Positions 22,699-39,573 of a stretch of 41,419 bases of DNA are shown here, piece by piece. Position numbers and translations under genes: made by a program. The stretch's first letter is position 1. Each line of letters opens with the position of its first letter. The stretch is from Microcystis elabens FACHB-917 (GTDB lineage: Bacteria; Cyanobacteriota; Cyanobacteriia; PCC-6307; Cyanobiaceae), in the NCBI RefSeq assembly GCF_014698445.1, contig NZ_JACJSZ010000029.1, positions 1 through 41,419 of the forward strand, written 5' to 3'. The notes below the pieces were generated by a model. The model worked only from the letters and a program-made list of their open reading frames with translations, had not been told where the DNA came from and searched no databases.

Positions 22699-22773
22699 GG
22701 AGGGGCTGGCGGTTCTGGCGATGCACAATTCTTCCACGACCAGCGCCGGCCACGCGAGACCCACCGCAACACT

Positions 22774-23954: not shown

Positions 23955-23984
23955 CTTCGGGCATCGCCCCAACGTCCTGCATCC

Positions 23985-25058
23985 GTGAGCGCTGGCCGTC
24001 CATCCCGTCCCCGCAGCAGCAACCCCTGGCTTCGCCCGGTGGGGCTGGTGCTGCGGCTGATCGTGCTGGGCGTGGGTCTGGGGGTGATCGTGGGCACCGC
24101 CCTCAAGCTGATGGCGCCGCGGCTGGTCCAGGGGGCGATCGGCACCCCCGCACCGGCGACACCGATGGCGCCCACGGTGAAGAAACCCGGCAGCGGCCCC
24201 ATGGCCCTGGGACGCTTCGAACCGCGCCAGGAGCTGGTGGGGCTCAGCCAGCAGTGGGCCCGGCTGGCGGCGGCCCAGAAGGCGCTGACCGCCAGCGCCT
24301 TCCTGCTGGTGCTCGACGACGGTCGCTTCGCCCAGCTGCAGCCGGACCTGCCCCTGTCGGCGGCCAGTTCCATCAAGGTGCCGATCCTGCTGGCCAGCCT
24401 GGAGGATCTCGATGGCGGCAAGCTGCGCTGGAACGAGCCCATGCCGCTCACCAAGGAGGTGGTGGGGGGCGGCGCCGGCTGGATGGCCAACAAGCCCCTG
24501 GGCACCCGCTTCCCCTTCTTCGAGGCCGCCACGGAGATGATCCGGGTGAGCGACAACACCGCCACCAACCTGCTGATCCGCCGTCTGGGCGGCAAGACCA
24601 CCCTCAACACGCGCTTCCGCAGCCTCGGCCTGACGGCCACGGTGGTGAACAACTGGCTGCCGGACCTGGACGGCACCAACACCACCAGTTCCCGCGACCT
24701 CGCCCGCTCCATCGCCCTGGTGGACACCGGCGACAAGCTCACGCCCCGGGCCCGTGACCTGTTCCGGGAGATCATGGCCACCTCCCGCACCAACACCCTC
24801 ATTCCCCTCGGCCTGCTGATGGGGATGGGCAAGGACTCCTCCGATCCCGACAGCGAGCTGCTGCCCGAGGGCATCACCGTCTACAACAAGACCGGCGACA
24901 TCGGCATCGCCTACTCCGACGCCGCCCTGATCCAGCTGCCCAACGGCCAGCGGGCCGTCCTGGCCCTGATGGTGAAGGGTCCCTTCAACGATCCCCGCTC
25001 CGCCGAGCTGATCAGGGCGATGGCCGGGGCCGTCACCAAAACCCTCGTCAAACGCTGA
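23985..25058 (+). CDS. Class A beta-lactamase-like serine hydrolase
   Basis: A 357-residue exported or membrane-tethered serine hydrolase. An N-terminal transmembrane helix (LVLRLIVLGVGLGVIVGTAL, about 21-40) is followed by a Pro-rich linker and a penicillin-binding/class A beta-lactamase fold: SxxK as SSIK at 128-131, SDN at 189-191, and KTG in YNKTGDIG near residue 302. Such proteins in cyanobacteria may act on peptidoglycan peptides rather than antibiotics; the omega-loop Glu of class A lactamases is not obvious. The GTG at 23985 is the start. Its stop overlaps the next ATG by one base (TGATG), and it leads the run DUF3370-chlI-ruvC. Confidence 0.85.
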   Translation: MSAGRPSRPRSSNPWLRPVGLVLRLIVLGVGLGVIVGTALKLMAPRLVQGAIGTPAPATPMAPTVKKPGSGPMALGRFEPRQELVGLSQQWARLAAAQKALTASAFLLVLDDGRFAQLQPDLPLSAASSIKVPILLASLEDLDGGKLRWNEPMPLTKEVVGGGAGWMANKPLGTRFPFFEAATEMIRVSDNTATNLLIRRLGGKTTLNTRFRSLGLTATVVNNWLPDLDGTNTTSSRDLARSIALVDTGDKLTPRARDLFREIMATSRTNTLIPLGLLMGMGKDSSDPDSELLPEGITVYNKTGDIGIAYSDAALIQLPNGQRAVLALMVKGPFNDPRSAELIRAMAGAVTKTLVKR

Positions 25059-26563
25059 TGAACGCCCCCATCCGCGCCCTGGTGCTGCCCGTTCTGGGGC
25101 TGGCCGCCCTGGGCGGCCCCCTGCTCGCCCAGCCGCAACCCGCCCCCGCCCCGGCGCCGAAGCCCGCCCCAGCTCCCCCGGTGCTGCGCCCGGGCACGGT
25201 GGCGCCCCTGCCGGGCCGGCTCGACGCGGTGCCGATGGTGAACGACAACAACCCCGAGGTGATCAAGGGGCCCGGCATCCTGGTGTCCACCTTCGATGGC
25301 CAGCGGGGGTTCGACGGGCGCCCCCTGGGGGTGCCGGCGGCACACCTGAACGCGGCCGTCAGCGGCCCCTTCGAACTGTTCAGCCATCACATCTACGCCG
25401 GAACCCCCGAGAGCCTCGACTCCACCCTCTGGCTGGCGGTGGTGGCGGCCCCGCGGGGCACCGTCCCGGTGAAGCTTCGGACTGTGGCGGGCTCCACCGC
25501 CCTCTCCCAGTCGGTGGACCCGAACCAGCCCTCGGCCCCCTTCCTGCCCCTGCCGGCCCTCATGGAGCAGGGCACCACACCGATCTGGGCGGGCCCCGGC
25601 AGCCGGGTGGCCACCGAGCTGCTGGCGCGGCAGCGCAGCCCCCTGGTGCCGGAGGGCTGGACCCTGCCGACGGGACAGCTCAGCACCCTGCTGGTGCTGC
25701 CGCTGCCGGTGCGCGGTCTCGATCCCCTGCTCAACGGCCTCAACCTGCAGCTGCGGCTCAACAGCGACGGTCCGGTGGATGTGGCCACTCTGGCGGCCTT
25801 CGGCCCCGTGGATCGCCCGCCGGATCCCGCCGTCTGGCAGCGGCTGCTGCAGGGCGGCCTCAGCCCGAAGGAGCACAGCCCCAGCCCCCGGGGGGCCGGC
25901 GGGCCGATGATCTATTCCCGCGTCAGCGGCGTTCAGGAGGGCAGCGCCTGGGTGGGGCGGATCACCGATCCGGGCCGCCCGACCCTCTCGGTGAGCCGGG
26001 CCCCGATCTCCTGGCCGATCGCGTCGCTGGAGCGGGGCACCCTCGGCACCGGCCAGGTGCAGACGGCCCCCCTGCGGGCCTTCTACCCCGGCACCGCCTG
26101 GGCGGCCCACGGCAACTACGGCGTCACCTACGACCTCAGCCTGCCGCTGCTTAACGACACGTCCCGGCCAGTGCAGCTCGCCCTGGCCCTGGAATCACCG
26201 ATCAAGACCGAGCAGGCCCTGGGCGGGCTGCGCTTCAACACCACCCCGGCGCGGGCGGTGATGTTCCGGGGCACGGTGGAGGTCAGCGGCCTCGACAACG
26301 ACACCGGCGGCCCGGGGGGACGGCGGCGGTTCCACCTGGTGCTGCGGGCCGGCCAGGAGGGCCCGCCCCTGGGCACGGTCAGCCTGCGGCCCGGCCAGGA
26401 GCGGCAGCTGCGGGTGCGGCTCATCTACCCGGCCGACGCCACCCCCCCCCAGGTGCTTTCGCTGCTCCCGGTGGTGACGCCGGTGGCCCCGGGAACCAGT
26501 CCGGGGGCGGCCCCAGGGGCGGCTGTGAAACAATCCGGGGCACCGCCCGCAAGCCGTCCGTGA
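25058..26563 (+). CDS. DUF3370-family secreted protein
   Basis: A 501-residue protein with a signal peptide (ALVLPVLGLAALGGPLLA, cleavage before QPQPAP), a Pro/Ala linker of about 20 residues and a large beta-rich domain of the cyanobacteria-specific DUF3370 family (PLPGRLDAVPMVNDNNPEVIKGPGIL, HHIYAG, HGNYGVTYDLSLPLLN). The function is unknown; a periplasmic or outer-envelope role is likely from the signal peptide. It is locked between the serine hydrolase (1-bp overlap) and chlI (GTGA overlap), so its expression is coupled to both. Confidence 0.8.
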   Translation: MNAPIRALVLPVLGLAALGGPLLAQPQPAPAPAPKPAPAPPVLRPGTVAPLPGRLDAVPMVNDNNPEVIKGPGILVSTFDGQRGFDGRPLGVPAAHLNAAVSGPFELFSHHIYAGTPESLDSTLWLAVVAAPRGTVPVKLRTVAGSTALSQSVDPNQPSAPFLPLPALMEQGTTPIWAGPGSRVATELLARQRSPLVPEGWTLPTGQLSTLLVLPLPVRGLDPLLNGLNLQLRLNSDGPVDVATLAAFGPVDRPPDPAVWQRLLQGGLSPKEHSPSPRGAGGPMIYSRVSGVQEGSAWVGRITDPGRPTLSVSRAPISWPIASLERGTLGTGQVQTAPLRAFYPGTAWAAHGNYGVTYDLSLPLLNDTSRPVQLALALESPIKTEQALGGLRFNTTPARAVMFRGTVEVSGLDNDTGGPGGRRRFHLVLRAGQEGPPLGTVSLRPGQERQLRVRLIYPADATPPQVLSLLPVVTPVAPGTSPGAAPGAAVKQSGAPPASRP

Positions 26564-27645
26564 CGCCAACCAGGAAGCGCAGGGTCTTCCCCTTCACCGC
26601 CATCGTGGGGCAGGAGGAGATGAAGCTGGCGCTGCTGCTCAACGTGATCGATCCCCGCATCGGCGGGGTGATGATCATGGGCGACCGGGGCACGGGCAAA
26701 TCCACCACCATCCGAGCCCTCGCCGATCTGCTGCCGGCGATCGACGTGGTGGCCGGCGACCCCTACAACAGCTCGCCCAGCGACCCCGACCTGCAGAGCG
26801 CCGAGGTGCGCCAGCGGGCCGAGCGGGGCGAGGAGCTGCCGGTGGAGGCCCGCCAGGTGCCGATGGTCGACCTGCCGCTGGGGGCCACCGAAGACCGCCT
26901 CTGCGGCACGATCGACATCGAGAAGGCCCTCAGCGAGGGGGTGCGGGCCTTCGAGCCGGGGCTGCTGGCCAAGGCCAACCGCGGCCTGCTGTACGTGGAT
27001 GAGGTGAACCTGCTCGACGACCACCTGGTGGACGTGCTGCTGGATTCGGCCGCCTCGGGCTGGAACACGGTGGAGCGGGAGGGCGTGAGCGTGCGGCACC
27101 CGGCCCGCTTCGTGCTGATCGGCTCCGGCAACCCGGAGGAGGGGGAGCTGCGGCCCCAGCTGCTGGATCGCTTCGGCATGAGCGTGGAGGTGCGCACCGT
27201 ACGCGATCCGGAGCTGCGGGTGCAGGTGGTGGACCAGCGCACCAGCTTCGATGCCGATCCCGACAGCTTCAGCGACCGGCTGCAGAGCACCCAGGACGCC
27301 CTGCAGGCCCGGGTGGTGGAGGCCCAGGAGCGGCTGCCCCAGGTGGCCATCGACGACGACCTGCGCATCCGCATCTCGGCGGTCTGCGGCGAACTGGACG
27401 TGGACGGCCTGCGGGGCGACATCGTCACCAACCGGGCCGCCCGGGCCCTGGCGGCCTTCGAGGGCCATCTGGAGGTGAGCGACGACGATGTGGCCCGGGT
27501 GGTGGCCTGCTGCCTGCGCCACCGGCTGCGCAAGGACCCCCTCGAGCAGATCGACTCCGGCGAGCGGGTCGTGAAGACGTTCTGCAAGGTGTTCGACAGT
27601 ACCGCCGACGACCCCTCCGCCTTCCAGCTGGCCCTGGCGGGGTGA
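26560..27645 (+). CDS. chlI: Magnesium chelatase ATPase subunit I
   Basis: A 361-residue AAA+ ATPase that, with ChlD and ChlH, inserts Mg into protoporphyrin IX, the first committed step of chlorophyll synthesis. Walker A is GDRGTGKST at residues 41-49; [15 protein letters not shown] is the Walker B region; [23 protein letters not shown] carries sensor 1 and the arginine finger. The N-terminus [20 protein letters not shown] is typical. Length is normal. Translation starts at a GTG overlapping the DUF3370 stop and ends in a GTGA overlap with ruvC. Confidence 0.97.
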
Positions 27646-28124
27646 GGATTCTTGGCATCGATCCCGGGCTGGCGCGCGTCGGCTACGGGGTGATCGATGT
27701 GGAAGGCCGCTCCGCCGCGGGCGGCGGTCACCGGCGCCTGCTCGACTGCGGCATGATCCGCACCGAACCCGGCCGCAGCGACGGCGATCGCATGGTGGAG
27801 ATCGCCCGCGATCTGCGGGTGATCGTGCGCCGCTGGCGGCCCCAGCTGGCGGCGGTGGAGAAGTTCTTCTTCTATCGCTCCAGCACCACGATCGCGGTGG
27901 TGCAGGCCCGCGGGGTGGTGATGATGACCCTGGCGCGCTTCGCCATTCCGGTGGTGGAGTACCCGCCGATGCAGATCAAGCTGGCCCTGGCGGGGTCGGG
28001 CCACGCCGAGAAGGACGAGGTGCTGGCGGCTGTGATGCGGGAGCTGGAGCTGGAGCATCCCCCCCGCCCCGACGACGCCGCCGATGCCCTGGCGGTGGCC
28101 CTGACCGGCTGGTTTCAGCGGTGA
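27642..28124 (+). CDS. ruvC: Crossover junction endodeoxyribonuclease RuvC
   Basis: A 160-residue Holliday-junction resolvase acting with RuvAB. The four catalytic acids of the RNase H-like fold are placed as expected: Asp7 in [12 protein letters not shown], Glu73 in AVEKFFF, and Asp145/Asp148 in [19 protein letters not shown] is also present. A short insertion ([11 protein letters not shown], about 22-32) separates the first two strands. The GTG start overlaps the chlI stop. RuvC following chlI is an order I associate with picocyanobacteria. Confidence 0.96.
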
Positions 28125-28170
28125 GGGGCGGCCGGCGGGCGATCCTGAGCCTCATGCGCTGGAGACGGGG

Positions 28171-28812
28171 ATGGAGGCGTCGGAGAAAGACCGGCTGCGG
28201 CGGCTCTATCGCCGGATACGCCGGCTGAGCCTGCCATCGGCAGCTGACGCCATCCTGGCGGTCGCCCGCAGGGAGCTGCCCGGCCAGATCCACCCCAGCC
28301 GGCACCTGGGGCTCTACTGGCCCCTCGCCCAGGAGCCGGACCTCAGAAGCCTGGCGAAGCAGGCGCTTGGGCCCCTGGCCCTGCCCGCAGTCCGCGCCGG
28401 ATCAGGCCTGATCTATCTCCCCTGGAGGCCGGGGGATCCCTTGGGCGCCGATGCCTGCGGCATCAGCGCACCATTGGAGGGCACCCCGTTGGAGCCGGAG
28501 GCCTTGGCCCTGCTCCTGGTTCCGGCGCTGGCGGTATCCCCCACCGGCATACGGCTCGGCTCGGGGGGGGGCTGGTACGACCGGCTGCGGGCCGATCCCC
28601 GCTGGCGGGCCGTGCCGGCGCTGGCGGTTCTGCCGGCGGCCTGCGTCGCCGCCAGGGTTCCTCCGGATCCCTGGGATGTTCCCTTCTCCGGCTGGATTGA
28701 CGAGGGGGGTCTGCACTGGGCCCAGACGCCAGCCGGGAACGTTGCAAGCGATGAACCAAGGGCGCGGGGGGAAGCGGAAACAACCACTGACTGCGAAGAT
28801 CTGGGAAGTTAA
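28171..28812 (+). CDS. 5-formyltetrahydrofolate cyclo-ligase family protein
   Basis: A 213-residue protein of the 5-FTHF cyclo-ligase family (MTHFS/YgfA), which converts 5-formyl-THF to 5,10-methenyl-THF with ATP. The N-terminal basic helix KDRLRRLYRRIRRLSL, the strands LGLYWPLAQEPDL and ALLLVPALAVSPTGIRLGSGGGWYDR (the G-x-GGGWYDR motif) and the C-terminal DVPFSGWI match the family. The last 30 residues (DEPRARGEAETTTDC) are a low-complexity tail. It begins 46 bp after ruvC on the same strand and may share its transcript. Confidence 0.88.
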   Translation: MEASEKDRLRRLYRRIRRLSLPSAADAILAVARRELPGQIHPSRHLGLYWPLAQEPDLRSLAKQALGPLALPAVRAGSGLIYLPWRPGDPLGADACGISAPLEGTPLEPEALALLLVPALAVSPTGIRLGSGGGWYDRLRADPRWRAVPALAVLPAACVAARVPPDPWDVPFSGWIDEGGLHWAQTPAGNVASDEPRARGEAETTTDCEDLGS

Positions 28813-28820
28813 TTCTTCCG

Positions 28821-29030
28821 ATGTTGGACCTGACCTCCAGAAGCTGCCGATCCTGGGCAGACTCCAGCCGGATTGACCATCGCCTGACCCTCACCGCCGC
28901 CGAACGTGTGCTCGCGGCCGAACTTCAGAGCCGCAGCGACGAGAACAGCGCCCTCTCGATGATGGTGAGGTCCATGGCGAGGATGGTACAGGCAGGCAAA
29001 ATGGGTGATAGTCGTTGGAAAGCGACCTGA
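28821..29030 (+). CDS. Possible small protein, weak evidence
   Basis: An ATG-initiated 69-codon frame in the gap between the cyclo-ligase and the CbiL/NikL-like gene. Its second half (LTLTAAERVLAAELQSRSDE and onward) reads as an amphipathic helix with GC-rich third positions, as expected for a host gene, but the first 20 residues look random. The minus strand here is also partly open. No family is recognised. It may be a genuine small protein or only the leader of the next gene. Confidence 0.25.
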   Translation: MLDLTSRSCRSWADSSRIDHRLTLTAAERVLAAELQSRSDENSALSMMVRSMARMVQAGKMGDSRWKAT

Positions 29031-29038
29031 ACGGTTCC

Positions 29039-29527
29039 ATGGCCCGACGTCTCCTGGTTCTGGCGATCGTGGGCGGGGCCGCCGCCCTAGGGCCCCCAGC
29101 GGCACGGGCCCACGGCATCCAGAGCACGCTCGACTACTTTCCGTCGGCCACCGGCGGAGAAATGAAGCTCGAAAGCCACTTTTCCAGCGGCGATCCGGCC
29201 CGCGATGCCACTGTGCGCCTTCTGCCGCCGGATGGGGGTGAAGCCATCGCAATCGGCAGGACCGGTCCCGACGGCCGGCTCGTCTTCACCCTCCCACCCC
29301 AGCTCCAGAACGGCTGGGAGATACAGGTCGATGCGGGACCGGGACACCGGGACTACCTCTCGCCTGACGATGCCAAACGCTCCCCAGCCCCTGCCGGCTT
29401 CACCGGTCAGGCCGCCGGGCAGGTCCGCCGTCTGCACCGCTGGAGTGATCCGCTTCCCTGGGCCCTCACCGGCCTCGCCCTGATCACTGGTCTGGGCATT
29501 GCCGCACATCGTGGGAGCAGGTCCTGA
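29039..29527 (+). CDS. CbiL/NikL-like exported protein with C-terminal anchor
   Basis: A 162-residue envelope protein. The signal peptide (ARRLLVLAIVGGAAALGPPAARA) is cut before HGIQS, leaving a His as the second-site residue of the mature N-terminus. A beta-sandwich-like body (MKLESHFSSGDPARDATVRLL, GRTGPDGRLVFTLP) and a C-terminal transmembrane helix (LPWALTGLALITGLGIAA) follow. This architecture, with an N-terminal His after cleavage, a carboxypeptidase-regulatory-like fold and a C-terminal helix, resembles the CbiL/NikL components of nickel or cobalt ECF transporters. No transporter genes adjoin it, so the metal role is inference. The ATG at 29039 is preferred to a start 8 codons upstream. 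Confidence 0.55.
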   Translation: MARRLLVLAIVGGAAALGPPAARAHGIQSTLDYFPSATGGEMKLESHFSSGDPARDATVRLLPPDGGEAIAIGRTGPDGRLVFTLPPQLQNGWEIQVDAGPGHRDYLSPDDAKRSPAPAGFTGQAAGQVRRLHRWSDPLPWALTGLALITGLGIAAHRGSRS

Positions 29528-29544
29528 ATCGATAGGATCATTTG

Positions 29545-29967
29545 ATGACTTACGGCAGTGCGGCTCTCGATCGTCTGGTGGATCGCCTGAGCAGCACCCA
29601 GGACCCCAAACGCCGCTACGAATTCCTGCTCTGGCTGGCCCGAAAGCTGCCACCTCTGCCGGAGGACTTCCGGCAGGATGCCTTCAAGGTGAAGGGCTGT
29701 GTCTCCCAGGTGTACGTGGTGGGGCAGCTCAGCGGTGGCACCGTGCACTGGCTGGGGGATTCCGACGCCCAGATCACCAAGGGATTGCTGGCCTTGCTGA
29801 TCGAAGGGATGGAGGATCTGACCCCGGAGCAGGTCACGGCGATCGACCCCGCCGTGCTGGCCGCCACTGGGCTGCAGACCAGCCTCACCCCCTCCCGGGC
29901 CAATGGCTTTCTGAACATTTTCCGCATGATGCAGGCTCAGGCAGCACGGCTGGCTCCCGCCGACTGA
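29545..29967 (+). CDS. sufE: SufE, sulfur acceptor for cysteine desulfurase
   Basis: A 140-residue SufE protein that accepts persulfide sulfur from SufS and delivers it to the SufBCD scaffold for iron-sulfur cluster assembly. The active-site Cys is C52 in VKGCVSQVYV; RYEFLLWLARKLPPLPE before it and LTPSRANGFLNIFRMMQAQA after it are typical. The ATG at 29545 is taken; a TTG directly before it is in frame. A bidirectional-looking hairpin follows at 30008-30036. This is the last core gene before the accessory island. Confidence 0.94.
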   Translation: MTYGSAALDRLVDRLSSTQDPKRRYEFLLWLARKLPPLPEDFRQDAFKVKGCVSQVYVVGQLSGGTVHWLGDSDAQITKGLLALLIEGMEDLTPEQVTAIDPAVLAATGLQTSLTPSRANGFLNIFRMMQAQAARLAPAD

Positions 29968-30075: not shown

Positions 30076-30816
30076 TCAGGCGGAAGCAGGGACCGACTTG
30101 ACACGCTTGCGCAGACGGCGGGAATAGCCGAAAGCAACTCCAGCACCGAGGATGGGGAGGGGACCGGGGACCTTGTCCACCTCGAGACGCTCCACGTTGA
30201 CCTGGGCGGAATAGGAGCCACCAGTGGGTTGAGTCGTATCGTTAAAGGTGAAGGCACCGGCCACAACCGTTGGATTAGCGCCTGGTAAACCCGAGACGAA
30301 ACCAGTGAGATCAGCGGCGAAGTTTTGTGTCACTTCCACTTGAACAGCTGTTGCACTTTGGGACACCAAGAACTGGACCCCACCAAAGATCCCCACCGTG
30401 ACACCGTTACTGAAGGAGAAGGAAGTGTCGCTATCCAGTGTATAAAGGGCCTGGAATGGACTTACCGGGGCTAGATAGGTAAAGTTTGCTGTGACCGCTG
30501 AGACGGCAATGGGGGCTGAGGGGGGCGCTGAAATGAAAGGAGGAACAAAAATACCGCCAGCTCCGGTCACCAAGCTTATGGGGGCGTCACCGGTGTTGAA
30601 CAGAACGCTGAATGTGTCGAAGGCATCGGTTATGTCCACTTGGCTGGCGAAGTCACCTGTGCCATTGGCCCATTCGAGGTTACCGACCTGAAGAGCGTGA
30701 GCGGAAGGAGCTCCAAAAGCCAGGATGCCAGAAAAGGCAGCGGCTGGAAGGATGGCCCTGAGTGGATCTCTACCTTTACACAGAAAATGGAAGGTGGCAC
30801 CCATAAGAGTGGTCAT
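30076..30816 (-). CDS. Secreted protein with PEP-CTERM-like sorting tag, second copy of tag
   Basis: A 246-residue exported protein. The signal peptide (LRAILPAAAFSGILAFGAPSAHA) is followed by a beta-rich domain with VGNLEWANGTGDFASQVDITDAFDTFSVLF, reminiscent of choice-of-anchor-type adhesin-like domains, unrelated to the body of the protein at 20819. The C-terminus carries the same tag: VDKVPGPLPILGAGVAFGY, then SRRLRKRVK, differing from the other copy in only a few conservative residues. This indicates a shared exosortase-type sorting route. Two starts are possible (30816 or 30804); the first is used. The DNA is less GC-rich than core genes. It opens the accessory island and reads toward sufE. 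Confidence 0.75.
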   Translation of the reverse strand: MTTLMGATFHFLCKGRDPLRAILPAAAFSGILAFGAPSAHALQVGNLEWANGTGDFASQVDITDAFDTFSVLFNTGDAPISLVTGAGGIFVPPFISAPPSAPIAVSAVTANFTYLAPVSPFQALYTLDSDTSFSFSNGVTVGIFGGVQFLVSQSATAVQVEVTQNFAADLTGFVSGLPGANPTVVAGAFTFNDTTQPTGGSYSAQVNVERLEVDKVPGPLPILGAGVAFGYSRRLRKRVKSVPASA

Positions 30817-31044
30817 TCATTACTGAACGTTCAAATTCTAAGGCATGAATGGAACCATAACCGATCTGCTGGAAGCCTGTTAGGGAACCGCAACACCCTG
30901 AGAGGCTGCCAACCAACCATTTCTGGACGACGACTGGCAATCGGGGGGCCTTGCGGCTCGGCCCACTGACAGTCCGGCTTGGGCGGCCATCCGCCTGCCG
31001 TTACCGAATCTCACCTCCAGCTCCGCCTGTCCATGAAGCAGCTA

Positions 31045-31935
31045 ATGCAGTAGCTTAGCAAGTTGGTTGTGGGTGTCAGCCTTGGAGGTATGGGGCCAGC
31101 CATAGGCCACGGGATGCCCGCGACTGTCTTGGGTCCGCTGGCAAGCCGGAGCCGCCCGTTCCTGGAGGCTCACATCCCGTAGGGCATCACCTGCATCCGT
31201 CGCTCCTGCAGCTTTCTCCCCACCAATGCTGTTCTGCAGACCTGGGACGGGCAGGAGGTGCGTTTGTCGCCGGGCACCAGAAGGCATTCGATTCCCTGGC
31301 CGTTGAACCACCACCCCAGCCCAAGGCTCGGAAAGCCCGCAGCGGTCAGCCCACTTTCGTCAGGCAACACCCCCGCAGCAGACAGGCGGGGCGCGTCATC
31401 CACCGCCAGAAGAACTGTTAAAAACCGGCTCCATGTCAGCCTGAGCTGCTCTTGTGCGGATCTGCGATGACCCGGTGGCCGACCGGCTCGAACCAGGCCA
31501 GCTGCCACTCCTTCACAAAATCCTGCCTGTGGGGAGGCACGGGCTTGGGAGGGGCCAAGCGATCCGATCCGAGCAGATTCGTCGCCTGCCCGCAGGTGGT
31601 GATGCCAGCAGCAGCCCCCCGCGTAGCCGAACCGATCTGACGATTGATTCCGCTGATAACCAAGGCGGATGAGCAGGACCTTGCGGAACTCGGCTGGCAG
31701 CTTTTTCAGCAGCTTCCAAGGTTTCAAGACGGATCATGTCACCGGGTTGCTCCGACTGGTTTCGCCGCACCGGCAGAGTGGGGTCGAAGTTGTGCAGCCG
31801 GTTCAGCCCTCGGCGCAACATCAGCCGGGCCAAAACCCAGAACTCCACGGCTTGCTGCAGTTGCTGCCGATCGGGCGTCCGCCATGGCTGATGTCCCGCC
31901 GGTAAGACAACACCAGCGCTTTGAGGGCGGTGCAC
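31045..31935 (-). pseudogene. Degenerate IS481-family transposase
   Basis: Pieces of an IS481-type transposase appear in order in different minus-strand frames: GLNRLHNFDPTLPVRRNQSE and PGDMIRLETLE (about 31830-31715), AWFEPVGHRVIADPHKSSSG (about 31505-31445), TVLLAVDDAPRL, VLPDESGLTAAG and GWWFNGQGIE (about 31420-31280), and a tail resembling YNHxRPHTxLGG (about 31120-31060). Between the first and second parts about 200 bp of unrelated sequence is inserted (about 31510-31710). At least three frame changes and lost DDE residues make it inactive. Terminal inverted repeats were not found. Confidence 0.7.
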
Positions 31936-32077
31936 TCACCGATCCCGTGGTCAGCGACCTGCTGCGGGAGGCTCCTGCCCCCATGGGGATGCTGACCGAT
32001 CAGGAGCTCCCGACGAGGAACTGTTCAGGGGGGGGGCTTCGGGGCAGTTCCGCTATTGACAGACCTCTGAAACCAGC

Positions 32078-32551
32078 TTGGTTCTCAGGCAGAGACTGCC
32101 CGAGATGCTTCCACCACCTGCCATCAGTTATGAGAATAACTGGGAGGCGAGATCGCCAACCGTGAGAACCCTGGTGGGCCAGCTGATCACCAAGCTGGAA
32201 GAGCAGATGGGCCGCAACTCCAGGAACTCCTCAAACCCTCCATCCAGTGACGGCAGCGGTTTTGAGCCCACAGTCATCCCCACGCCAACCGGTCTGCAGA
32301 TGGTGGCCGTGGGTCCTGCAACAGATCCACGGCCGCGGGTCTCTGACGTCTACCTATGCGACCATGAGAATGATATCCTGTCACCGGAGGGAATCTGGGG
32401 CCCGCTGACCAAGACCCGAGAAGCCCTTGACGCGAATGGGAATCTGGTGGTGTCCACACCCGTCACCACCAACCATGGCCGAGGTCCCATGATTAACAGT
32501 TTGGCGGGCATCTACTTTCTCGCCATGGCCCACGGCCCTGTCATAAAGTGA
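32078..32551 (+). pseudogene. IS66 N-terminal fragment joined to unknown sequence
   Basis: One open frame joins two unrelated parts. The stretch 32165-32270 encodes LVGQLITKLEEQMGRNSRNS then SNPPSSDGSGFE, which is the N-terminal coiled coil and Asn/Ser/Pro motif of IS66 transposases. The rest (to 32551) encodes about 95 residues (DPRPRVSDVYLCDHENDILS, VVSTPVTTNHGRGPMINSLA) that I do not recognise and that do not belong to IS66. It may be a fragment of a host gene captured or left behind by rearrangement. Nothing suggests the chimera is expressed. Confidence 0.55.
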
Positions 32552-32680: not shown

Positions 32681-33928
32681 TCAGACCACCCGAAGAATAG
32701 CTCCTGCAGCCGTCAGCCCCGGTCCAAAGACAATCGTGATAATCAGGGTGCCCGAGTGAACGGTGTGATCCGAGAGGATCTCAGCCCACATGTGAGGAGC
32801 GGTCGCCGAGGAGAGGTTGCCACGTTCCAGCAGAATCCTGCGTGACCAGGCCATTCTCTCTTCCGTAACGTTCAGTGCATCCCTGACCTTGTCGAGAATG
32901 CTTGGACCACCCGGATGCACTGCCAGAATAGAATCAGGAAAATCACGGGATTTCACAAGGCCAGCGCGTTCATAGAGGCTGTGAACGAACGTGTTGACAT
33001 GCTGGGCAATCTGGTCGGGGATGGCTTTGTCCAGAATCATGTGCATGCCACTGTGAACAATGCTCCATTGCATCAGATCACTGGTATCAGGGATGATGAA
33101 TTCATGGGCAGCCAACAGTTCATAAGCTCGCAGTGATCCATGGGTCGCACCATCAGGGGACCACATTTTGTAGGCAATGACTCCATCACCAAAGAGACTG
33201 TGGCCAACGATCTGATCAGGGGTTCGTCGGACAGGATCTGCATGGAGGGTGTGGAGTTCTGTGTGCACAATGTCCACAGAGGCTTCCTCCGGCCTGCCCT
33301 GGGCCATGGCGCTGGCTACGAGACCGGAAGCGACACGCAGAGCGGGTACCGAGGCGTGGCAACCCTGGTGGTGCACCTGGGTGATATGGGTGGTGTTCCA
33401 GCCCTGGGAGCTGGCGAGGAGCTGGGGGGCGCTGGGCGACTCGTAAGCGGTGCAGGTGACGTGCAGGAGATTGGAAGGCGGCTGTCTCTGTCCGGCAAAG
33501 AGGTCATCGAAGATCTGCCTTGTGTAGCGCTTGAAGGCTTCACGGCGGCGGCCCCAGCCACCAAGGCTGAGGGGATCCCCAGGATCAAACACCGTCCATT
33601 CTTCGGGAGGCAACAGAAAATCCTCCGTGTAGGTGAATCGACGAGAAAGAAGCTTTGGGCTGCAGCCGTACCGGTCAAACAGTTTGGCGTAATGAGCCCT
33701 TGCGGACTCGATGTTAAAGTGATCTCCTTGGACAACAGCGGCCCGAGCGAAAATGTCGACTAAGAAGCTGAAAAGCCTTTCCTGGGGAATGGCAAAGGGT
33801 GGATCCACGATCCGGAAATTTCCGATCCTGCAAATAGCCGGGACCGATGTACGGCCGGGCTGGAGACTCCGTGCGGGAGAATGGCGAGCCGGTGCAGAGA
33901 CCGAAGCCTTAGAGAGAGTGGAAGTCAT
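32681..33928 (-). CDS. Type III polyketide synthase (chalcone/stilbene synthase-like)
   Basis: A 415-residue ketosynthase-only polyketide synthase that would condense malonyl-CoA onto an acyl-CoA starter. The catalytic triad is complete: Cys190 in VHHQGCHASVPALR, His338 in LAVHPGGPSILDKV, and Asn371 in LERGNLSSATAPHMW. The His-Asn spacing is 33, as in plant chalcone synthase. Further family blocks are DQIVGHSLFGDG and the terminal IVFGPGLTAAGAILRV. The motif around Cys (GCHASV) differs from the usual GCYAG/A. There is an N-terminal extension of about 30 residues, and no Shine-Dalgarno sequence precedes the ATG. No methyltransferase, oxidase or CoA-ligase partner adjoins it; both neighbours are transposon remnants. 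Base composition is lower in GC than core genes, consistent with transfer. The product cannot be predicted. Confidence 0.88.
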   Translation of the reverse strand: MTSTLSKASVSAPARHSPARSLQPGRTSVPAICRIGNFRIVDPPFAIPQERLFSFLVDIFARAAVVQGDHFNIESARAHYAKLFDRYGCSPKLLSRRFTYTEDFLLPPEEWTVFDPGDPLSLGGWGRRREAFKRYTRQIFDDLFAGQRQPPSNLLHVTCTAYESPSAPQLLASSQGWNTTHITQVHHQGCHASVPALRVASGLVASAMAQGRPEEASVDIVHTELHTLHADPVRRTPDQIVGHSLFGDGVIAYKMWSPDGATHGSLRAYELLAAHEFIIPDTSDLMQWSIVHSGMHMILDKAIPDQIAQHVNTFVHSLYERAGLVKSRDFPDSILAVHPGGPSILDKVRDALNVTEERMAWSRRILLERGNLSSATAPHMWAEILSDHTVHSGTLIITIVFGPGLTAAGAILRVV

Positions 33929-34184
33929 GGAGGAGGAAGAATGAAGTTGCTTGAGAAGCCAAGCAATTAGTTAGAGTTGGAATTCTGTGCGCTATGTTGT
34001 TATTTGAGTTTTTTCAAAATGTTACTAATCTTATCAGCGGCCAAGCCAGACGTCAAGTGTGCAGCCATGCCATTGGCACAGGATGATGGCGCGATTGCAC
34101 ATGAAGAAAATGTCCGATCAGTGACCGGGACGGCTTCCATCAGGCTTCTGCCCTGCTGAACCCTTGAAGGCAGCTCGATTCGCG
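33929..34184. other. AT-richer gap upstream of the polyketide synthase
   Basis: This 256-bp gap should hold the polyketide synthase promoter on the minus strand. The part nearest the gene (33940-34040) is the most AT-rich stretch in the island, with several TA-rich hexamers but no pair I would call a -35/-10. Toward 34184 it grades into the beginning of the IS66 remnant. No gene is seen. Confidence 0.4.
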
Positions 34185-34733
34185 GCTTGCAGACCTGCGA
34201 GAGCGAATAGGACGCGGCTCGCGTAACTCCTCCTAGCCGCAAGGATTCTGCGAAGCAGTGGCCGCCTTCCAGGAATAGCCCTGGCAACCGCTGCGCGGAA
34301 GCCCTTCGGGCCAAAAGCCGCCAGTGCGACGCAAGGGGAGAGGCCGTGAACGCGGCGGCCTGCCGGGACATCCTGAATCCGGGCCTGACCTGCTGCCGAT
34401 CGAGGGGATGGATGCGGTGGTGGAGCACCACCCTGATGACTAGCGCCGCAGCCATCGCCGACCGCACCGGGGCCAACGCCGAGTTCGCAGCCCAGCTGCT
34501 GGGCCTGCAGCACCAGCTGTTCGAGCACTGGCACCAATGAAAAGACGCTGCCGGCTGATCCAGTTGGCCTTTGAGCAGACGCTGCGGCGGGCGGTGGAGC
34601 TTGGTTTCCAGACCAGTGAGCGAACGCCGTGGGCCAGGGCGATGCGCACCTTTCAGCAGTTGCTGAGTCAGAAGCGGGCGCCTTGGACCTTCCTGGAACA
34701 CCCCGGAATTGAACCCACCAACAACACCGCTGC
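34185..34733 (+). pseudogene. IS66 transposase remnant with internal deletion
   Basis: The DNA matches the IS66 remnant at 39810-40658 collinearly over about 34185-34435 (shared GCGGAA-CCCTTCGGGC, CCGGGACA, GAGCACCACCC), corresponding to the transposase N-terminal region up to VVEHHPD. A large internal deletion then joins it to C-terminal parts in shifted frames: GANAEFAAQLLGLQHQLFEH and RRCRLIQLAFEQTLRRAVEL, ending TFLEHPGIEPTNNTAA, the catalytic-end motif of IS66 (usually NNxAERALR). The motif stops abruptly at 34733, where group II intron sequence begins. Several stops and frameshifts make it non-functional. Confidence 0.75.
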
Positions 34734-34734
34734 C

Positions 34735-34805
34735 GGGTAGCCCCGGGGAACTTCCCCCCGAGGCCCCCACAGATCCGGACGTGACACTCTCGCGTCATCC
34801 GGCTC
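34735..34805 (-). ncRNA. Group II intron 3' end: domains V and VI
   Basis: On the minus strand, 34805-34772 has the 34-nt form of group II intron domain V: it opens GAGCCGGATG, has a GAGA tetraloop region, and closes CACGTCCGGATC, with the two strands pairing around the usual bulge. Immediately downstream a second stem (CCTCGGGG with CCCCGGGG) and the terminal CTACCC fit domain VI with its branch-point A. The intron 3' end is near 34733-34738, exactly where the IS66 sequence stops. The maturase tail lies just upstream at 34896-35149. The intron's 5' ribozyme domains are not seen, so it cannot splice. Confidence 0.8.
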
Positions 34806-34895
34806 CTGTCATCCAGCCGCAACACCAACACCACGCTAGTGAGCAAAGAGATCCCGCCTCTCATGAGCGATCCTCGTCAGAACTTGCCGGCTGCG

Positions 34896-35149
34896 TCAGA
34901 AACACAGCCATGCGCTCAGGTGCTCATTAAGATAGCCAAATAGCTTGGCCCTCAGTTCAGTTGGATAAAAACGTCCGTAATACTGAATCCAACCCCACAG
35001 GATCGGATTCAGGAGCCGGGCGATCTCCTCCAAAGGCAAATACATCCGCCTACGCAAATGCATTTCCCTAATCCTCTCTCGCATGCGCTTAAGCGCCTGC
35101 GGACTCACCGCTGGGAGGAAGCTCGCGAAGATCTCCCCAAAGCGTTTCC
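34896..35149 (-). pseudogene. Group II intron maturase, C-terminal fragment
   Basis: The minus-strand frame from about 35149 to 34896 reads RKRFGEIFASFLPAVSPQAL, then KRMRERIREMHLRRRM, LEEIARLLNPILWGWIQYYG and LFGYLNEHLSAWLCF-stop. This is the maturase-specific (X/GIIM) domain of intron-encoded reverse transcriptases, with the diagnostic NPxxxGWxxYY motif. The reverse-transcriptase domain is missing: the frame is cut at the left end of the IS630 element at 35150. The expected WLRRKYKR ending is also truncated by a stop. It lies in the correct order and orientation before domain V. Confidence 0.85.
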
Positions 35150-36300
35150 TAGTGTTATGTCCCGCAGATAGCTGCTATAATACGAGACGTAATCGTACAG
35201 CGAGAGTCAATGCCTGTCGGAAGACCGATGCCTCCCTTGAAGCTTTCCGAGGAAGTGCTTCGTCAGCTGCAGAATATCACCAATTCACGTTCAATACCAC
35301 ACTCAATCGTGCAGCGAGCACAGATCGTGCTTGCCTGTGGGGCCGGTGAATCCAACACCGCCATCGCCAAGCGGATGGGTCTGACAGGGATGACGGTCGG
35401 GAAGTGGAGGAAGCGCTATCGAGAGTACGGCATCGAAGGTCTTCACGATGAACTTCGTCCCGGCCGCCCTCGTACCTATGAGGACGACAAGGTAGCCGAA
35501 GTCATCAATTGTGCACTGCAAACGAAACCCAGCGATGGCAGTACTCACTGGAGTGCACGCTCGCTTGCAGCTGAGACAGGAATCTCTAAGAGCACAGTCC
35601 ACCGCTGGCTGAAGATATTTGCCCTCCAGCCCCATCGGCAGAAGAACTTCTAGATCTCGACTGATCCTTTCTTTGTCGAGAAGGTCAGAGATATCGTCGG
35701 CCTCTACCTGAATCCCACTGACGACGCAGTGGTGCTGTGCGTGGACGAGATAACCCAGGTGCAGGCTCTTGATCGCACTCAGCAAGTGCTGCCGATGGGC
35801 CTGGGATACGTGGAGGGAGTCACCCACGACTATATTCGACACGGTACGACCACCTTATTTGCTGCTCTTGACGTGGCAACTGGCGAGGTAGTCACTCAGC
35901 GCAAGCCTCGCCATCGGCATCAAGAATTCCTCGCCTTTCTCAGGGATATTGAGAAATCAGTGCCTACTGAGCTTGACCTGCATTTGATTGTCGATAACTA
36001 GGCCACGCACAAACATCCCAAGGTCAAAGCCTGGCTGGCCCAGCGACCCCGTTTTCATATCCACTTCACCCCAACTTATGCTTCATGGCTGAACCAGGTT
36101 GAACGCTGGTTTGCCCTCATTACAGAACGAGCCATTCGCCGTGGGAGTTTTTCCAGTGTCAAGCAGCTGATCGCCAGGATCGAGCAGTTCGTGGCGGCAT
36201 ATATCAAGAACACAGCTCCATTCACTTGGACGGCCACGGCGGATTCAATCTTGGAAAAGGTTCAGCGTCTCTGCTCTCATATCTCTGGGACAGCACACTA
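35150..36300 (+). mobile_element. IS630-family element with terminal inverted repeats and TA target
   Basis: The left end 35149-35168 begins CTAGTGTTATGTCCC and the right end, read inward, begins CTAGTGTGCTGTCCC; 16 of the first 20 positions agree. Each end is flanked by TA (35150-35151 and 36299-36300), the target IS630/Tc1-mariner elements duplicate. The element is therefore about 1.15 kb and complete in outline. It sits inside the group II intron maturase frame. The right-hand TA also forms part of the transposase TAG stop. The transposase carries two nonsense codons, so it could move only with a helper enzyme. Confidence 0.85.
35176..35181 (+). promoter_or_regulatory. Consensus -10 box of IS630 transposase
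   Basis: A perfect TATAAT lies 34 bp upstream of the transposase start, preceded by a weak -35-like TGTTAT at 17-bp spacing that falls in the left inverted repeat. This is usual for IS elements, where the terminal repeat overlaps the transposase promoter. Confidence 0.55.
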
Positions 36301-36301
36301 G
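35210..36301 (+). pseudogene. IS630-family transposase with two amber codons
   Basis: One frame runs the entire 363-codon length, interrupted only by TAG at 35651-35653 and TAG at 35999-36001. It encodes an N-terminal helix-turn-helix pair (NTAIAKRMGLTGMTVGKWRKRY, PSDGSTHWSARSLAAETGIS) and a DDE domain: VVLCVDEITQVQALDR has the first Asp; LHLIVDN-stop-ATHKHP has the second, with Tyr expected at the stop; and PTYASWLNQVERWF holds the final acid. The C-terminus ISGTAH ends at the inverted repeat. Apart from the two nonsense codons it is undamaged, so decay is recent. A partial relative is at 39604-39822. Confidence 0.88.
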
Positions 36302-36447
36302 GAGCGTGTCGCACGTTTCTCAGCCATGGCAGACCCTCACCCGCCTCCTTTGGGGGAGTTCTGAGCGCTGCTCTCAGCGCCGGACCTGAGCGGCACTGAG
36401 CGGTGGCCCCTCCCTCAACTTGCTGCCAGCGCTGCTCTGTGCGGCGC
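36302..36447. other. Short gap between IS630 and IS3 elements
   Basis: These 146 bp should be the continuation of the group II intron or of whatever lay beside it. On the minus strand the maturase frame stays open across the junction (NVRHAP joins RKRFGEIF when IS630 is removed), but no reverse-transcriptase motif is recognisable. A GTGCGAC, the usual group II intron 5' start, occurs on the minus strand at 36313. The rest contains short GCTCAG repeats. No gene is called. Confidence 0.4.
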
Positions 36448-36515
36448 CTATCAGGAAAGAAGTCCGCTCGGGGTGCCGTGCTTGGCACCTCGCAAATACT
36501 ACTCCAAGTCGTAGG

Positions 36516-37631
36516 TTATGGGCTTCGGCTTCGTGAAAATACGGTCATCGAGCTCATGATCTTGTGCAGAGGATTGAGCGGCCGGCCCCCGGGCGGGCGA
36601 GGATGATTCACTTGCGCGATCTGTGGCTGAGACCAATCGCGTGGGGCTCTGGCCCAGCGGCGTGGATGACGTAGGCGAGCCTGCTCAGAGGTCTGCTGAT
36701 GGATCGAGCAGATCGCATCAGCCTCATCGTAGTGACGCTGGTTCGGCGTCACGTACTTGATGCCGCTGTGGCGGTGCTCAGCGCTGTACCACTCCACAAA
36801 GCCATCCACCCAGGCTCGCACTGCGAGAAGATCCCGGAAGCGCCTGTGTGGATAGCTCTGGTGATATTTCAACGTGCGGAATAACGACTCCGCATAGGCA
36901 TTGTCATTGCTCACGCCCGGCCGCGAGAATGACATCTCGATCCCCAGTTCAGCCAGCTTGGCGGCCAAGGTGTAGGAGCGCATCGGTGCTCCGTTATCGG
37001 CGTGCAGGATCGTGGACGACCCCGAGTTGATCCCTTCATCTCAGCAGACGCGAACAAAGAAATGCTTGGCCAGCTCGCCGCACCCCAGTTCATGCACCTC
37101 GACGCCAAGGATACGCCGGCTCCACACATCTAACACCATATAAAGGTAGTAGAATTGCCCCTTCGCCGGCCCGAGCAACAGGGTGATATCACAGGCCAGT
37201 ACTTGATGGATGCCCGTCGCCTCCAGCACGGGTGGCTCTCTTGGCTCCCGCGGCGGGCGGCTCCTGCCACGATGATGCAGCAGGCCCTACTGGCGCATGA
37301 TGCGGTAAATCGTGGATTCAGATCCCACATAAACTCCCTCCTCGGCAAGGATCGCCACGATCTGGATGGGTGTGAGATCGGCAAAACGTGGATCATTGAC
37401 AGTGGACAGCACCTGTTGGCGCTCTTCCTCGCTGAAACGATGCATGACATGCCTGGTTGCCCCCTTGCGTTGATCCCGGCTGAATCCCTGGGCTCGAATC
37501 ATCAAGCCCCATCGCCGCAGCGTGCGTGCAGCCAAGCCGAATAGATCAGCAATGGCCTTGGCCGAAACGCCACGACTGATGCCTTCCTCCAGCAGTGCGA
37601 CGATCGCACCGCGATCCTCAGAGGAGATCAA
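36516..37631 (-). pseudogene. IS3 transposase OrfB with two in-frame stops
   Basis: A single minus-strand frame of about 371 codons encodes an N-terminal HTH (GVSAKAIADLFGLAARTLRRW) and an rve-type integrase core: first Asp in LACDITLLLGPAKG, second in HADNGAPMRSYTL, and Glu in YAESLFRTLKYH, followed by WYSAEHRHSGIKYVTPNQRH. It is broken by TAG at 37287-37289 (after YRIMRQ) and TGA at 37041-37043 (after FVRVC); no frameshift is needed. The catalytic triad is retained, so the inactivation is by point mutations only. It begins at a TTG overlapping the orfA stop, the usual IS3 arrangement for coupled or frameshifted translation. Confidence 0.85.
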
Positions 37632-38137
37632 GGCTCCTCGTCCGGCTGAAAGATCTGGGAGAACTTTTTTGAGAGCATCAGAAACGTTGCTGCCTCCGTG
37701 AGTGCTTTTTCTTTCTTCTGCAATTCACGCTCCAGCTGACGATTTCGCCGGATCTGTTCTTGATCCTTTCGTTGCAGTTCCCGCTGATCCGCTATATTCG
37801 GAACGCTGGGGCCATTGGCATCCTCATCGGCCTGGCGCCAACGGGCAACCTGCTTGGGGTACAAACCCCGTTCCCTGCAGAACGAGCCGAGATCCGTTCC
37901 GCGCAGTCCTGCGGCCTGGATCACGGCCGCCAGCTTGTCGGCAGCGCTCCACTGCTCTGGTGGCTTGGGACTCGCAGGCAACAGCTGGCCCTGCTTCTGC
38001 CACTGGCTGCGCCAGTTGTAGATGGTCTGCGCCGTGATCCCCGTGTCCCGGGCGATCCCAGCCACGCTCTCACGGTTCGGAGGGCTCATCCGGAAGCGGA
38101 CGGCTTCCCGCAGAGCGGCGTCATAAGTGGGTTGCAT
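37628..38137 (-). CDS. IS3 transposase OrfA
   Basis: An intact 169-residue OrfA. The helix-turn-helix is SVAGIARDTGITAQTIYNWR, a second HTH-like segment is TDLGSFCRERGLYPKQVARW, and a long charged coiled coil with a leucine-zipper-like pattern (LQRKDQEQIRRNRQLERELQ) closes it. OrfA binds the terminal repeats and regulates or fuses with OrfB by frameshifting. It is longer than classical IS3 OrfA (about 100 residues). The ATG at 38137 lies 36 bp inside the right inverted repeat. Since OrfB is broken, the element is not autonomous. Confidence 0.85.
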   Translation of the reverse strand: MQPTYDAALREAVRFRMSPPNRESVAGIARDTGITAQTIYNWRSQWQKQGQLLPASPKPPEQWSAADKLAAVIQAAGLRGTDLGSFCRERGLYPKQVARWRQADEDANGPSVPNIADQRELQRKDQEQIRRNRQLERELQKKEKALTEAATFLMLSKKFSQIFQPDEEP

Positions 38138-38238
38138 GGTCGTCGGTTGGGCCCCCTGGTGGACGGGTCAGACCGAGTGGACTTCTTTGCTGACAGTGGG
38201 GGGGAACCGTGCCAGGCCGCTCAAGGTAGAAGGCTTTC

Positions 38239-38244: not shown

Positions 38245-38268
38245 GTGACGTCTCCTGGACTCCGGCCC

Positions 38269-39573
38269 ATGACCATCGGTGTTGGCCTGCTCGGACTGGG
38301 CACGGTGGGAGCCGGCGTGGCTTCCATCCTCACCAACCCCGAGGGGCGCCACCCGATGGTGGCGGAACTCGCCCTGCGCCGGGTGGCCGTTCGGGATCGG
38401 CAGCGCACCCGGCCCGTGAGCCTCGCCGCAGGGAGGCTGGTCACAGATCCCCTTCTGGTGGTGGATGACCCGACGGTGGAGATCGTGGTGGAGGTGATGG
38501 GGGGTCTGGAGCCAGCCCGGACGCTCATCCTGCGTGCCATCGCCGCCGGCAAGCCCGTGGTGACAGCCAACAAGGCGGTCATTGCCCGCCACGGCGAAGA
38601 GATCGCCGCCGCCGCCGCTGAGCGTGGCGTCTATGTGCTGATCGAAGCGGCCGTGGGTGGGGGAATTCCGATCATCGAGCCGCTCAAGCAGTCCCTCGGG
38701 GGGAACCGCATCCAGCGGGTGAGCGGCATCATCAACGGCACCACCAACTACATCCTCAGTCGCATGGCCGATGAAGGAGCGGCCTACGCCGACGTGCTGG
38801 CGGAGGCCCAGAGGCTGGGCTACGCCGAAGCGGATCCAGCCGCGGATGTGGAAGGCGGCGATGCTACCGACAAGATCGCCATCCTCGCCGGGCTTGCCTA
38901 CGGGGGAACCGTATCCCGTGCGGGAATCGCCACCGAAGGCATCGACCGGCTGGACGCCCGCGATTTGGCCTACGCCGCCCAGCTGGGCTTTGTGGTGAAG
39001 CTGCTGGCGGTGGCAGAACATGTGGGGGACAACGCCGATGGCAGTGCGTCGCTCGACGTGCGGGTGCATCCCACCCTCCTGCCGACGTCCCACCCCCTGG
39101 CTGGGGTCCATGGGGTGAACAACGCCATCCTTGTGGAAGGGGAACCAGTGGGTCGGGTGATGTTCTACGGGCCCGGGGCAGGGGCAGGCCCCACAGCCTC
39201 GGCAGTGGTGGCCGACATCCTCAACATCGCTGGCATCCGCAAGGTCAGTGGGTCCCAGGCGGGCCTTGATCCACTCCTGGCCGCGAACCGCTGGCGCCGC
39301 TGCACCCTTGTGGACGGCTCCCGCACCAGGCATCGCAACTACGTACGCCTGCGCACCCTCGACGAGGCCGGCGTCATCGGCAAGATCGGCACCTGTTTCG
39401 GCGATGCCGGGGTCTCGATCCAGTCGATCGTTCAGTTCCCCGGCCACGAGGGGGGCGCCGAAATCGTGACGATCACCCACGAAGTGCTGGAAGCCCGGTT
39501 CCGCGAAGCCCTCACCACCATCGAGGCCCTGCGGGAGGTTGAGGCGGTGGCCGCCTGCCTGAGGACCCTTTAG
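38269..39573 (+). CDS. hom: Homoserine dehydrogenase
   Basis: A 434-residue NAD(P)H-dependent enzyme converting aspartate semialdehyde to homoserine for threonine and methionine synthesis. The dinucleotide-binding motif GLLGLGTVGAG opens the protein; GKPVVTANKAVIARHG, the substrate site EAAVGGGIPIIEPL, GIINGTTNYILSRM and EADPAADVEGGDATDKIAILA follow. A C-terminal ACT domain (NYVRLRTLDEAGVIGKIGTCFGD and VSIQSIVQFPG, about 350-434) suggests feedback control by an amino acid, usually threonine. The ATG at 38269 is preferred over an in-frame GTG at 38245. It is flanked on both sides by mobile-element debris yet is intact, consistent with an essential gene. Confidence 0.97.
   Translation: MTIGVGLLGLGTVGAGVASILTNPEGRHPMVAELALRRVAVRDRQRTRPVSLAAGRLVTDPLLVVDDPTVEIVVEVMGGLEPARTLILRAIAAGKPVVTANKAVIARHGEEIAAAAAERGVYVLIEAAVGGGIPIIEPLKQSLGGNRIQRVSGIINGTTNYILSRMADEGAAYADVLAEAQRLGYAEADPAADVEGGDATDKIAILAGLAYGGTVSRAGIATEGIDRLDARDLAYAAQLGFVVKLLAVAEHVGDNADGSASLDVRVHPTLLPTSHPLAGVHGVNNAILVEGEPVGRVMFYGPGAGAGPTASAVVADILNIAGIRKVSGSQAGLDPLLAANRWRRCTLVDGSRTRHRNYVRLRTLDEAGVIGKIGTCFGDAGVSIQSIVQFPGHEGGAEIVTITHEVLEARFREALTTIEALREVEAVAACLRTL

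Follow-up and report, generated by a model that had tools for sequence, protein, structure and literature searches.

An intact type III polyketide synthase, predicted to make alkylresorcinols, and the remnant of its probable methyltransferase partner in a cyanobacterial sufE-hom insertion

An intact type III polyketide synthase (PKS) gene of Microcystis elabens FACHB-917 is best explained as an alkylresorcinol-type enzyme, probably from the side of the family that holds ArsB and ArsC, which arrived in an insertion along with a probable methylating partner; the partner was destroyed in this strain and the PKS was kept. We put the probability of this combined reading at roughly 0.6. The gene lies in a stretch of 41,419 nucleotides (the window), which was compared with the rest of its own genome (G000, 121 contigs) and with a closed genome of the same genus (G022, 3,342,364 bases), which we take to be Cyanobium gracile PCC 6307. 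L numbers denote loci. The features discussed are listed below in window coordinates, with the G022 methyltransferase last.

29542 to 29967, plus strand: sufE, left border of the island (Pfam)
30076 to 30816, minus strand: uncharacterized protein with a VPGPLPILG tail and a relative in G022 (no Pfam match)
32186 to 32254, plus strand: IS66-type N-terminal fragment, DUF6444 (Pfam; residues 37 to 59 of the open reading frame at 32078 to 32551)
32279 to 32539, plus strand: remnant of a SAM methyltransferase (residues 249 to 335 of the 374-amino-acid G022 gene), tail-to-tail with the PKS
32681 to 33928, minus strand: type III PKS, intact, 415 amino acids, with Cys190, His338, Asn371, and Trp288 (open reading frame list, Pfam, PDB, fold)
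34732 to 34807, minus strand: catalytic 3' end of a group II intron (RF00029)
35210 to 36001, plus strand: broken transposase, with an HTH part at 35210 to 35653 and a DDE_3 part at 35729 to 36001 (Pfam)
36516 to 38137, minus strand: transposase debris, with rve_3 at 36516 to 36983 and HTH parts at 37287 to 37631 and 37628 to 38137 (Pfam)
38245 to 39573, plus strand: hom (homoserine dehydrogenase), right border of the island (Pfam)
L058, 10701 to 11825, minus strand: intact SAM methyltransferase of G022, 374 amino acids (Methyltransf_2 and dimerization domains)

Identity and placement of the PKS

The PKS frame runs on the minus strand from ATG to TGA for 415 codons, a length reached by none of 2,000 mononucleotide shuffles of the 1.7 kb around it (longest-frame median, 128; maximum, 309). 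The first-pass annotation described a complete ketosynthase with a Cys190-His338-Asn371 triad, and the reading frame, Pfam, and the triad columns of a 65-row alignment (Cys in 65 of 65 rows, His and Asn each in 63 of 65) all agree. The two Pfam profiles that it proposed as a check score above the cutoff of 27 bits, Chal_sti_synt_C at 81.3 bits (E value of 9.6e-23) and Chal_sti_synt_N barely so, at 27.7 bits (2.3e-6). Among the best 60 of 100 matches in a PDB sequence search, the top entries were 3vs9 (2.8e-60) and 3vs8 (1.3e-58), which are mutant and wild-type ArsC of Azotobacter vinelandii, respectively; the next distinct enzyme followed at 1e-21, with other type III PKSs downward. An AlphaFold2 model built from 23 sequences (m5643bddf134e) had a mean pLDDT of 87.6, falling below 50 in the N-terminal stretch of residues 1 to 29. 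Foldseek ranks 1 to 14 with this model were all ArsC chains (E values of 1.0e-35 to 1.4e-33; TM scores to the query of 0.81 to 0.85, with 0.84 for 3vs8_E), and rank 15 was a chalcone synthase (2.3e-23). Judged by its profiles and modeled fold, the gene is a genuine type III PKS, predicted to condense an acyl group with malonyl-CoA. A PHROGs search gave no match, and a promoter and terminator scan stayed near shuffle means (1 versus 0.5 and 3 versus 2.4).

Contig searches with the single PKS protein found no relative, and an alignment query recovered 46 loci. A tree of 65 rows, selected from 110 hits, contained the window/G022 pair, 44 rows on the ArsB/ArsC (Ars) side, and 19 rows on the hid side, and it placed the pair on the Ars side with support of 100/100. 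In a second tree, from which nine long or short rows were omitted, the pair joined two Acidobacteriota (77/80) and the Ars/hid split again had support of 100/100. The stem of the pair is long, at 2.3 to 2.7 changes per column in the two trees, and an AU test did not reject a tree with the pair on the hid side of the deepest split (p 0.436), a result on which a firm tree placement inside the Ars side was given up. At diagnostic columns, defined as at least 85% conserved on one side and at most 10% on the other, the window PKS has 16 of 21 Ars-side residues and 3 of 28 hid-side residues. The Ars side is thus the best, though unproved, placement for this sequence.

The GCHASV motif around the nucleophile, first described as a departure from the usual one, falls inside family variation: His follows the Cys in 11 of 19 hid-side rows and 1 of 44 Ars-side rows, with Tyr in 41 of 44 of the latter. 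In two Chlorobiaceae loci, an intact type III PKS is followed downstream by another (L075, 1809 to 3083; L078, 8152 to 9429) that keeps the Cys but carries Gln and Tyr at the catalytic His and Asn positions; this downstream protein is possibly a non-condensing partner subunit. A very divergent type III PKS (L011, end branch of 2.62) occurs in another genome of the same genus, G020, with a methyltransferase nearby on the opposite strand.

Insertion between sufE and hom

Pfam identified both borders of the 8-kb island in which the PKS had been placed, and the gap from sufE to hom measures 8277 bp. At the corresponding site, G022 has a PKS that is 88% identical. To the left of the island, the DNA of the two genomes is about 90% identical, in two blocks (window positions 2937 to 20659 and 22553 to 29943), and over hom it is 95% identical, with no match past hom within the compared G022 stretch. 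Upstream of the PKS, the alignment is confined to about 23 bp before the start codon and one 32-bp patch. Within the approximately 90% identical region, positions 20660 to 22552 are without syntenic G022 DNA; their sole similarity is 222 bp at 69%, elsewhere in the compared stretch.

When hom was sought in 25 genus genomes, it was found, besides G000 and G022, in 21 (L112 to L132) and not in G004 and G016. sufE lies directly beside hom on the same strand in 20 of these 21 loci, with 34 to 593 bp between aligned ends, and in the remaining one (G013) the contig ends 479 bp before hom. The ancestral order was therefore sufE-hom and the island is an insertion, through which, on the evidence of gene order, the PKS entered the lineage of G000 and G022. 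Close copies of the PKS occur in 2 of 42 genus genomes, its own included, and the best match after these two in a class-wide search of 388 genomes was 33% identical. Absence from close relatives, with no expression, had been named in the first-pass annotation as something that would refute its proposal. It is indeed absent from most of the genus, but this rarity fits horizontal gain and not decay, because the other copy is intact at the same site.

The mobile debris reported on both sides of the PKS is borne out by the DUF6444 (IS66) fragment, the transposase parts, and the intron end; the IS481 label is not, because rve_3 alone leaves the IS family unsettled. Positions 33990 to 38210 have at least 40 further partial matches in the same genome (40 of 127 candidates scored), two of them within the window beyond hom, and the left stretch, 30820 to 32270, has only one. 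The protein at 30076 to 30816 could be either island content or an old neighbor and is kept apart from the PKS here. Short matches to its VPGPLP-type tail, perhaps a surface-sorting tail, occur near hom in 7 of 23 hom loci (L115, L118, L121, L125, L126, L128, and L130), and VPGPLP-like tails are also found in L058 at 5586 to 6422 and 13441 to 14334. The window genome is cyanobacterial, with 11 phycobilisome-family matches and a photosystem reaction-center protein, families that among 14 control genomes were matched only in Synechococcus elongatus.

A methyltransferase neighbor and its loss

In G022, the intact methyltransferase and the PKS stand tail-to-tail, 100 bp apart. The window retains 87 codons of the methyltransferase in the same arrangement, and the DUF6444 fragment stands directly before the remnant in the same open frame. 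The view that no tailoring gene adjoins the PKS was therefore mistaken about origins: with a remnant in the window and an intact gene in G022, the PKS is without a tailoring neighbor by loss and was not so originally. The remnant is the only match to the methyltransferase in the window genome at an E value of 0.001; a second candidate piece, the last 25 residues, was dropped as not significant (0.059). Among 60 relatives searched, close copies are confined to G022 and the G000 remnant. A tblastn search of 46 relatives' loci with the G022 methyltransferase returned nothing at 1e-3, and a plasmid search gave relatives of 25 to 28% identity (8 of 92 records listed). Its best PDB match by sequence is SibL, which we take to be a ring C-methyltransferase, followed by other methyltransferases. 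The methyltransferase of a similar planctomycete cluster is given as a probable C-methyltransferase in an excerpt of PMC10896814; the G022 enzyme may accordingly methylate either oxygen or carbon.

The PKS and the methyltransferase probably once acted in one pathway. If the PKS were a stand-alone alkylresorcinol synthase whose bare products were always released into membranes, the methyltransferase would be an unrelated neighbor. We regard this as rather unlikely, given the 100-bp spacing in G022 and the restriction of close methyltransferase copies to G022 and G000, which mirrors the 2 of 42 genomes with the PKS. The two G022 genes are, on the other hand, convergent and unequal in GC3 (0.65 for the PKS versus 0.81 for the methyltransferase); being outside an operon and of different composition, they may have arrived separately. 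Two planctomycetes likewise have a type III PKS without an adjacent methyltransferase or oxidoreductase, and for one of them, P. limnophila, no product is listed (excerpt of PMC10896814). Among the 13 nearest relatives of the PKS (the best phmmer matches after G022), nine have a methyltransferase in the locus, which speaks for a partnership, and four show none, two of these on contigs that end less than 600 bp past the PKS (L072 and L074).

The count of 9 of 13 compares with 0 of 35 other Ars-side loci in the same profile search. The profile was built from five of the nine, and the other four (L064, L068, L069, and L070) are independent hits; two of them were confirmed by Pfam, and the one in L064 lies about 3 kb from the PKS. 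These methyltransferases belong to Methyltransf_11, a different family from that of G022, and the profile also matches some hid-side loci. No FAD oxidoreductase was found by Pfam among the scanned island frames (10 window open reading frames and the G022 methyltransferase).

Predicted product

ArsB makes alkylresorcinols and ArsC makes alkylpyrones, with cyclization set by Trp281 in ArsB and Gly284 in ArsC; ArsB W281G loses the resorcinol and gains the pyrone, and in ArsC G284W pyrone output falls and resorcinol output rises (excerpt of PMC6274091). At this switch position, wild-type 3vs8 has Gly, mutant 3vs9 has Trp, and the window PKS has Trp288, an ArsB-type residue from which it is predicted to be an alkylresorcinol synthase. 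Trp occupies the position in all 13 nearest relatives, in 40 of the 44 rows on the Ars side, and in every one of the 19 on the hid side; because the hid side also has it, Trp288 favors a resorcinol and says nothing about Ars membership. The single Gly row is the A. vinelandii protein L083, presumably ArsC itself. Glu is found in L097 and L101 (Burkholderia/Paraburkholderia) and Leu in L080 at 7152 to 8441 (Beijerinckia mobilis), residues with which the product specificity of these enzymes may differ.

The expectation of a new lipid-like or phenolic product had no specific support as far as "new" is concerned: the PKS belongs to a known kind of enzyme, and Trp288 with an ArsC-like fold points to an alkylresorcinol. 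An alkylpyrone made by ArsC-like lactonization, or some shifted product, would be in keeping with ArsC as the closest solved structure and with the stem of 2.3 to 2.7 changes per column, which is long enough that specificity may have shifted. Such an outcome is nonetheless improbable, as Trp288 is the residue that favors resorcinol in the ArsB/ArsC swaps and the top rank of ArsC is uninformative about product, no ArsB structure being present among the best 60 of 100 PDB matches.

Selection on the PKS

Against G022, the PKS has a dN of 0.065 and a dS of 0.632, for a dN/dS of 0.103 (bootstrap range, 0.068 to 0.142; 1,000 codon resamples), as an average over both lineages since their split. The gene is under purifying selection, as the first-pass annotation had suspected from the intact frame; a ratio near 1 was the outcome it had named as contrary to its proposal. 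By the same method, the 87 codons of the methyltransferase remnant gave 0.556 (0.33 to 0.96). Further comparisons were hom (0.198), sufE (0.181), two other neighbors (0.239 and 0.440), and five flank open reading frames (0.078 to 0.374). The remnant thus serves as an internal control, in that one gene of the pair drifted and the other did not. A pairwise ratio cannot date the methyltransferase loss, because it averages both lineages since the split; selection on the PKS presumably continued after the break.

Other measures of constraint gave no consistent sign of acceleration after the loss, the window branch being shorter than that of G022 in one tree (0.058 versus 0.086) and longer in the other (0.082 versus 0.050). 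In columns at least 80% conserved, the window PKS has 2 lone deviations and the G022 PKS has 3 relative to the 44 Ars-side rows, and 2 and 1, respectively, relative to the 13 nearest relatives. At 95% columns, the counts are 1 and 0 for the Ars-side rows and 0 and 0 for the 13 nearest, the single change being Tyr186 to His in the window, four residues before the nucleophile. Synonymous divergence of the PKS (0.63) is about three or more times that of hom (0.14) and the five flank open reading frames (0.08 to 0.22) and is closer to that of sufE and its neighbors (0.36 to 0.59), which may reflect either older alleles or recombination in the flanks. GC3 of the window PKS (0.61) is below that of the measured flank genes (0.81 to 0.92) and the G022 methyltransferase (0.81).

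A dying gene, intact by chance and out of use in this strain after the loss of the methyltransferase, would suit the short upstream alignment with G022 (about 23 bp and the 32-bp patch), the many broken elements in the island, and the rarity of the gene in the genus (2 of 42). We consider this highly improbable in view of a dN/dS of 0.103 and a window branch that shows no consistent speedup; the lone-deviation counts, near even between the window and G022, point the same way in numbers too small to decide. Identity as a KAS III/FabH-type enzyme, suggested by a match of Pfam ACP_syn_III_C to the C terminus (39.6 bits), was rejected as scarcely conceivable, since the chalcone synthase profile reaches 81.3 bits over the same part, NCBIfam ranks DpgA, a type III PKS, first, with FabH models weak and far under their cutoff, and the best 50 fold matches are all to type III PKSs.

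Proposed pathway

Returning to the alkylresorcinol-type PKS with a lost methylating partner, we infer the substrate, the product, and the cause of the methyltransferase break as follows. A long acyl thioester from host fatty acid synthesis (acyl-ACP or acyl-CoA) would be loaded on Cys190, and His338 and Asn371 would drive three decarboxylative condensations with malonyl-CoA. Trp288 would narrow the cavity, such that the tetraketide would close by C2-C7 aldol condensation instead of lactonization and lose CO2 to yield a 5-alkylresorcinol. Before G000 and G022 diverged, the PKS would have stood in the sufE-hom insertion next to a SAM methyltransferase of COMT type, by which its product was probably methylated. 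A rearrangement in the window strain, probably linked to IS66, would have destroyed the methyltransferase while the PKS stayed under selection. With its methyltransferase gone and its PKS selected, this strain should make an unmethylated phenolic lipid.

Comparison with known systems

The window PKS resembles ArsB and ArsC of A. vinelandii in fold, triad, and 16 of 21 Ars-side diagnostic residues, and it shares with ArsB the Trp at the cyclization switch. It differs in sequence (about 30% identity) and in the low-confidence N-terminal stretch of residues 1 to 29 (pLDDT below 50). Between sufE and hom, neither the window nor G022 has an open reading frame longer than the 415-amino-acid PKS, so a type I FAS partner of the ArsA or ArsD kind is absent; with no frame of type I FAS/PKS size and a single PKS match in the island, membership in an ars operon (arsABCD) was rejected.

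The hidABC cluster for hierridin B in picocyanobacteria also combines a type III PKS with a methyltransferase, and HidC has the switch Trp. Unlike HidC, the window PKS falls on the other branch, with 3 of 28 hid-diagnostic residues (AU test p of 0.436 at the deepest branch), and the methyltransferase beside the G022 PKS is of another family than that of hidABC. Membership in a hid cluster was rejected by architecture. G022 has, in addition, a hid-type cluster (L151: methyltransferase, FAD enzyme, and PKS). By 29 to 33% matches alone, one of them partial, hid-type PKSs occur in 26 of 37 genus genomes, G022 among them, and the 121 contigs of the window genome gave no such match.

The nearest PKS-methyltransferase loci are the nine among the 13 relatives, from Acidobacteriota, Myxococcota, Fibrobacterota, Chlamydiota, and one unplaced proteobacterium (L107, L065, L064, L068, L069, L070, L067, L077, and L066). 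They are alike in a PKS 35 to 41% identical to that of the window (best tblastn segment), the equivalent of Trp288, and a methyltransferase in the locus; they are unlike in having the Methyltransf_11 type and, in L107 and L065, a FAD_binding_3 protein. The layout of these two loci resembles the methyltransferase-oxidoreductase-PKS operons of hierridin producers and planctomycetes, as outlined in an excerpt of PMC10896814, on another PKS branch.

C. gracile PCC 6307 has two type III PKS clusters, and clade 3.221, composed of ArsB, ArsC, and unknown cyanobacterial enzymes, is described as one whose reaction is hard to predict (excerpt of Larsen et al. 2021, PMC8086630). The G022 PKS is probably one of those two clusters. 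The text on clade 3.221 in that excerpt names no cyanobacterial strain, methyltransferase partner, or loss, and among the titles listed in literature searches outside subscription journals, none concerns this PKS gene or the loss of its partner. Hierridins and (7.7)paracyclophanes were the only cyanobacterial type III PKS products isolated by 2021, according to the same excerpt (PMC8086630).

Against this background, the locus gives a clade of unpredicted reaction a testable product, an alkylresorcinol by virtue of Trp288, together with a candidate partner methyltransferase. We suggest, tentatively and as a possibility short of our expectation, that the genus has, besides hierridins, another way of making phenolic lipids, brought in from elsewhere, strongly diverged (stem of more than 2 changes per column), and with its own COMT-type methyltransferase, and that the window strain is in effect a naturally occurring tailoring mutant whose core enzyme stayed in use once the partner was gone, with the bare alkylresorcinol as the selected product. 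G000 and G022 form a natural pair of strains without and with the partner, in which the value of the core lipid can be separated from the value of its methylation.
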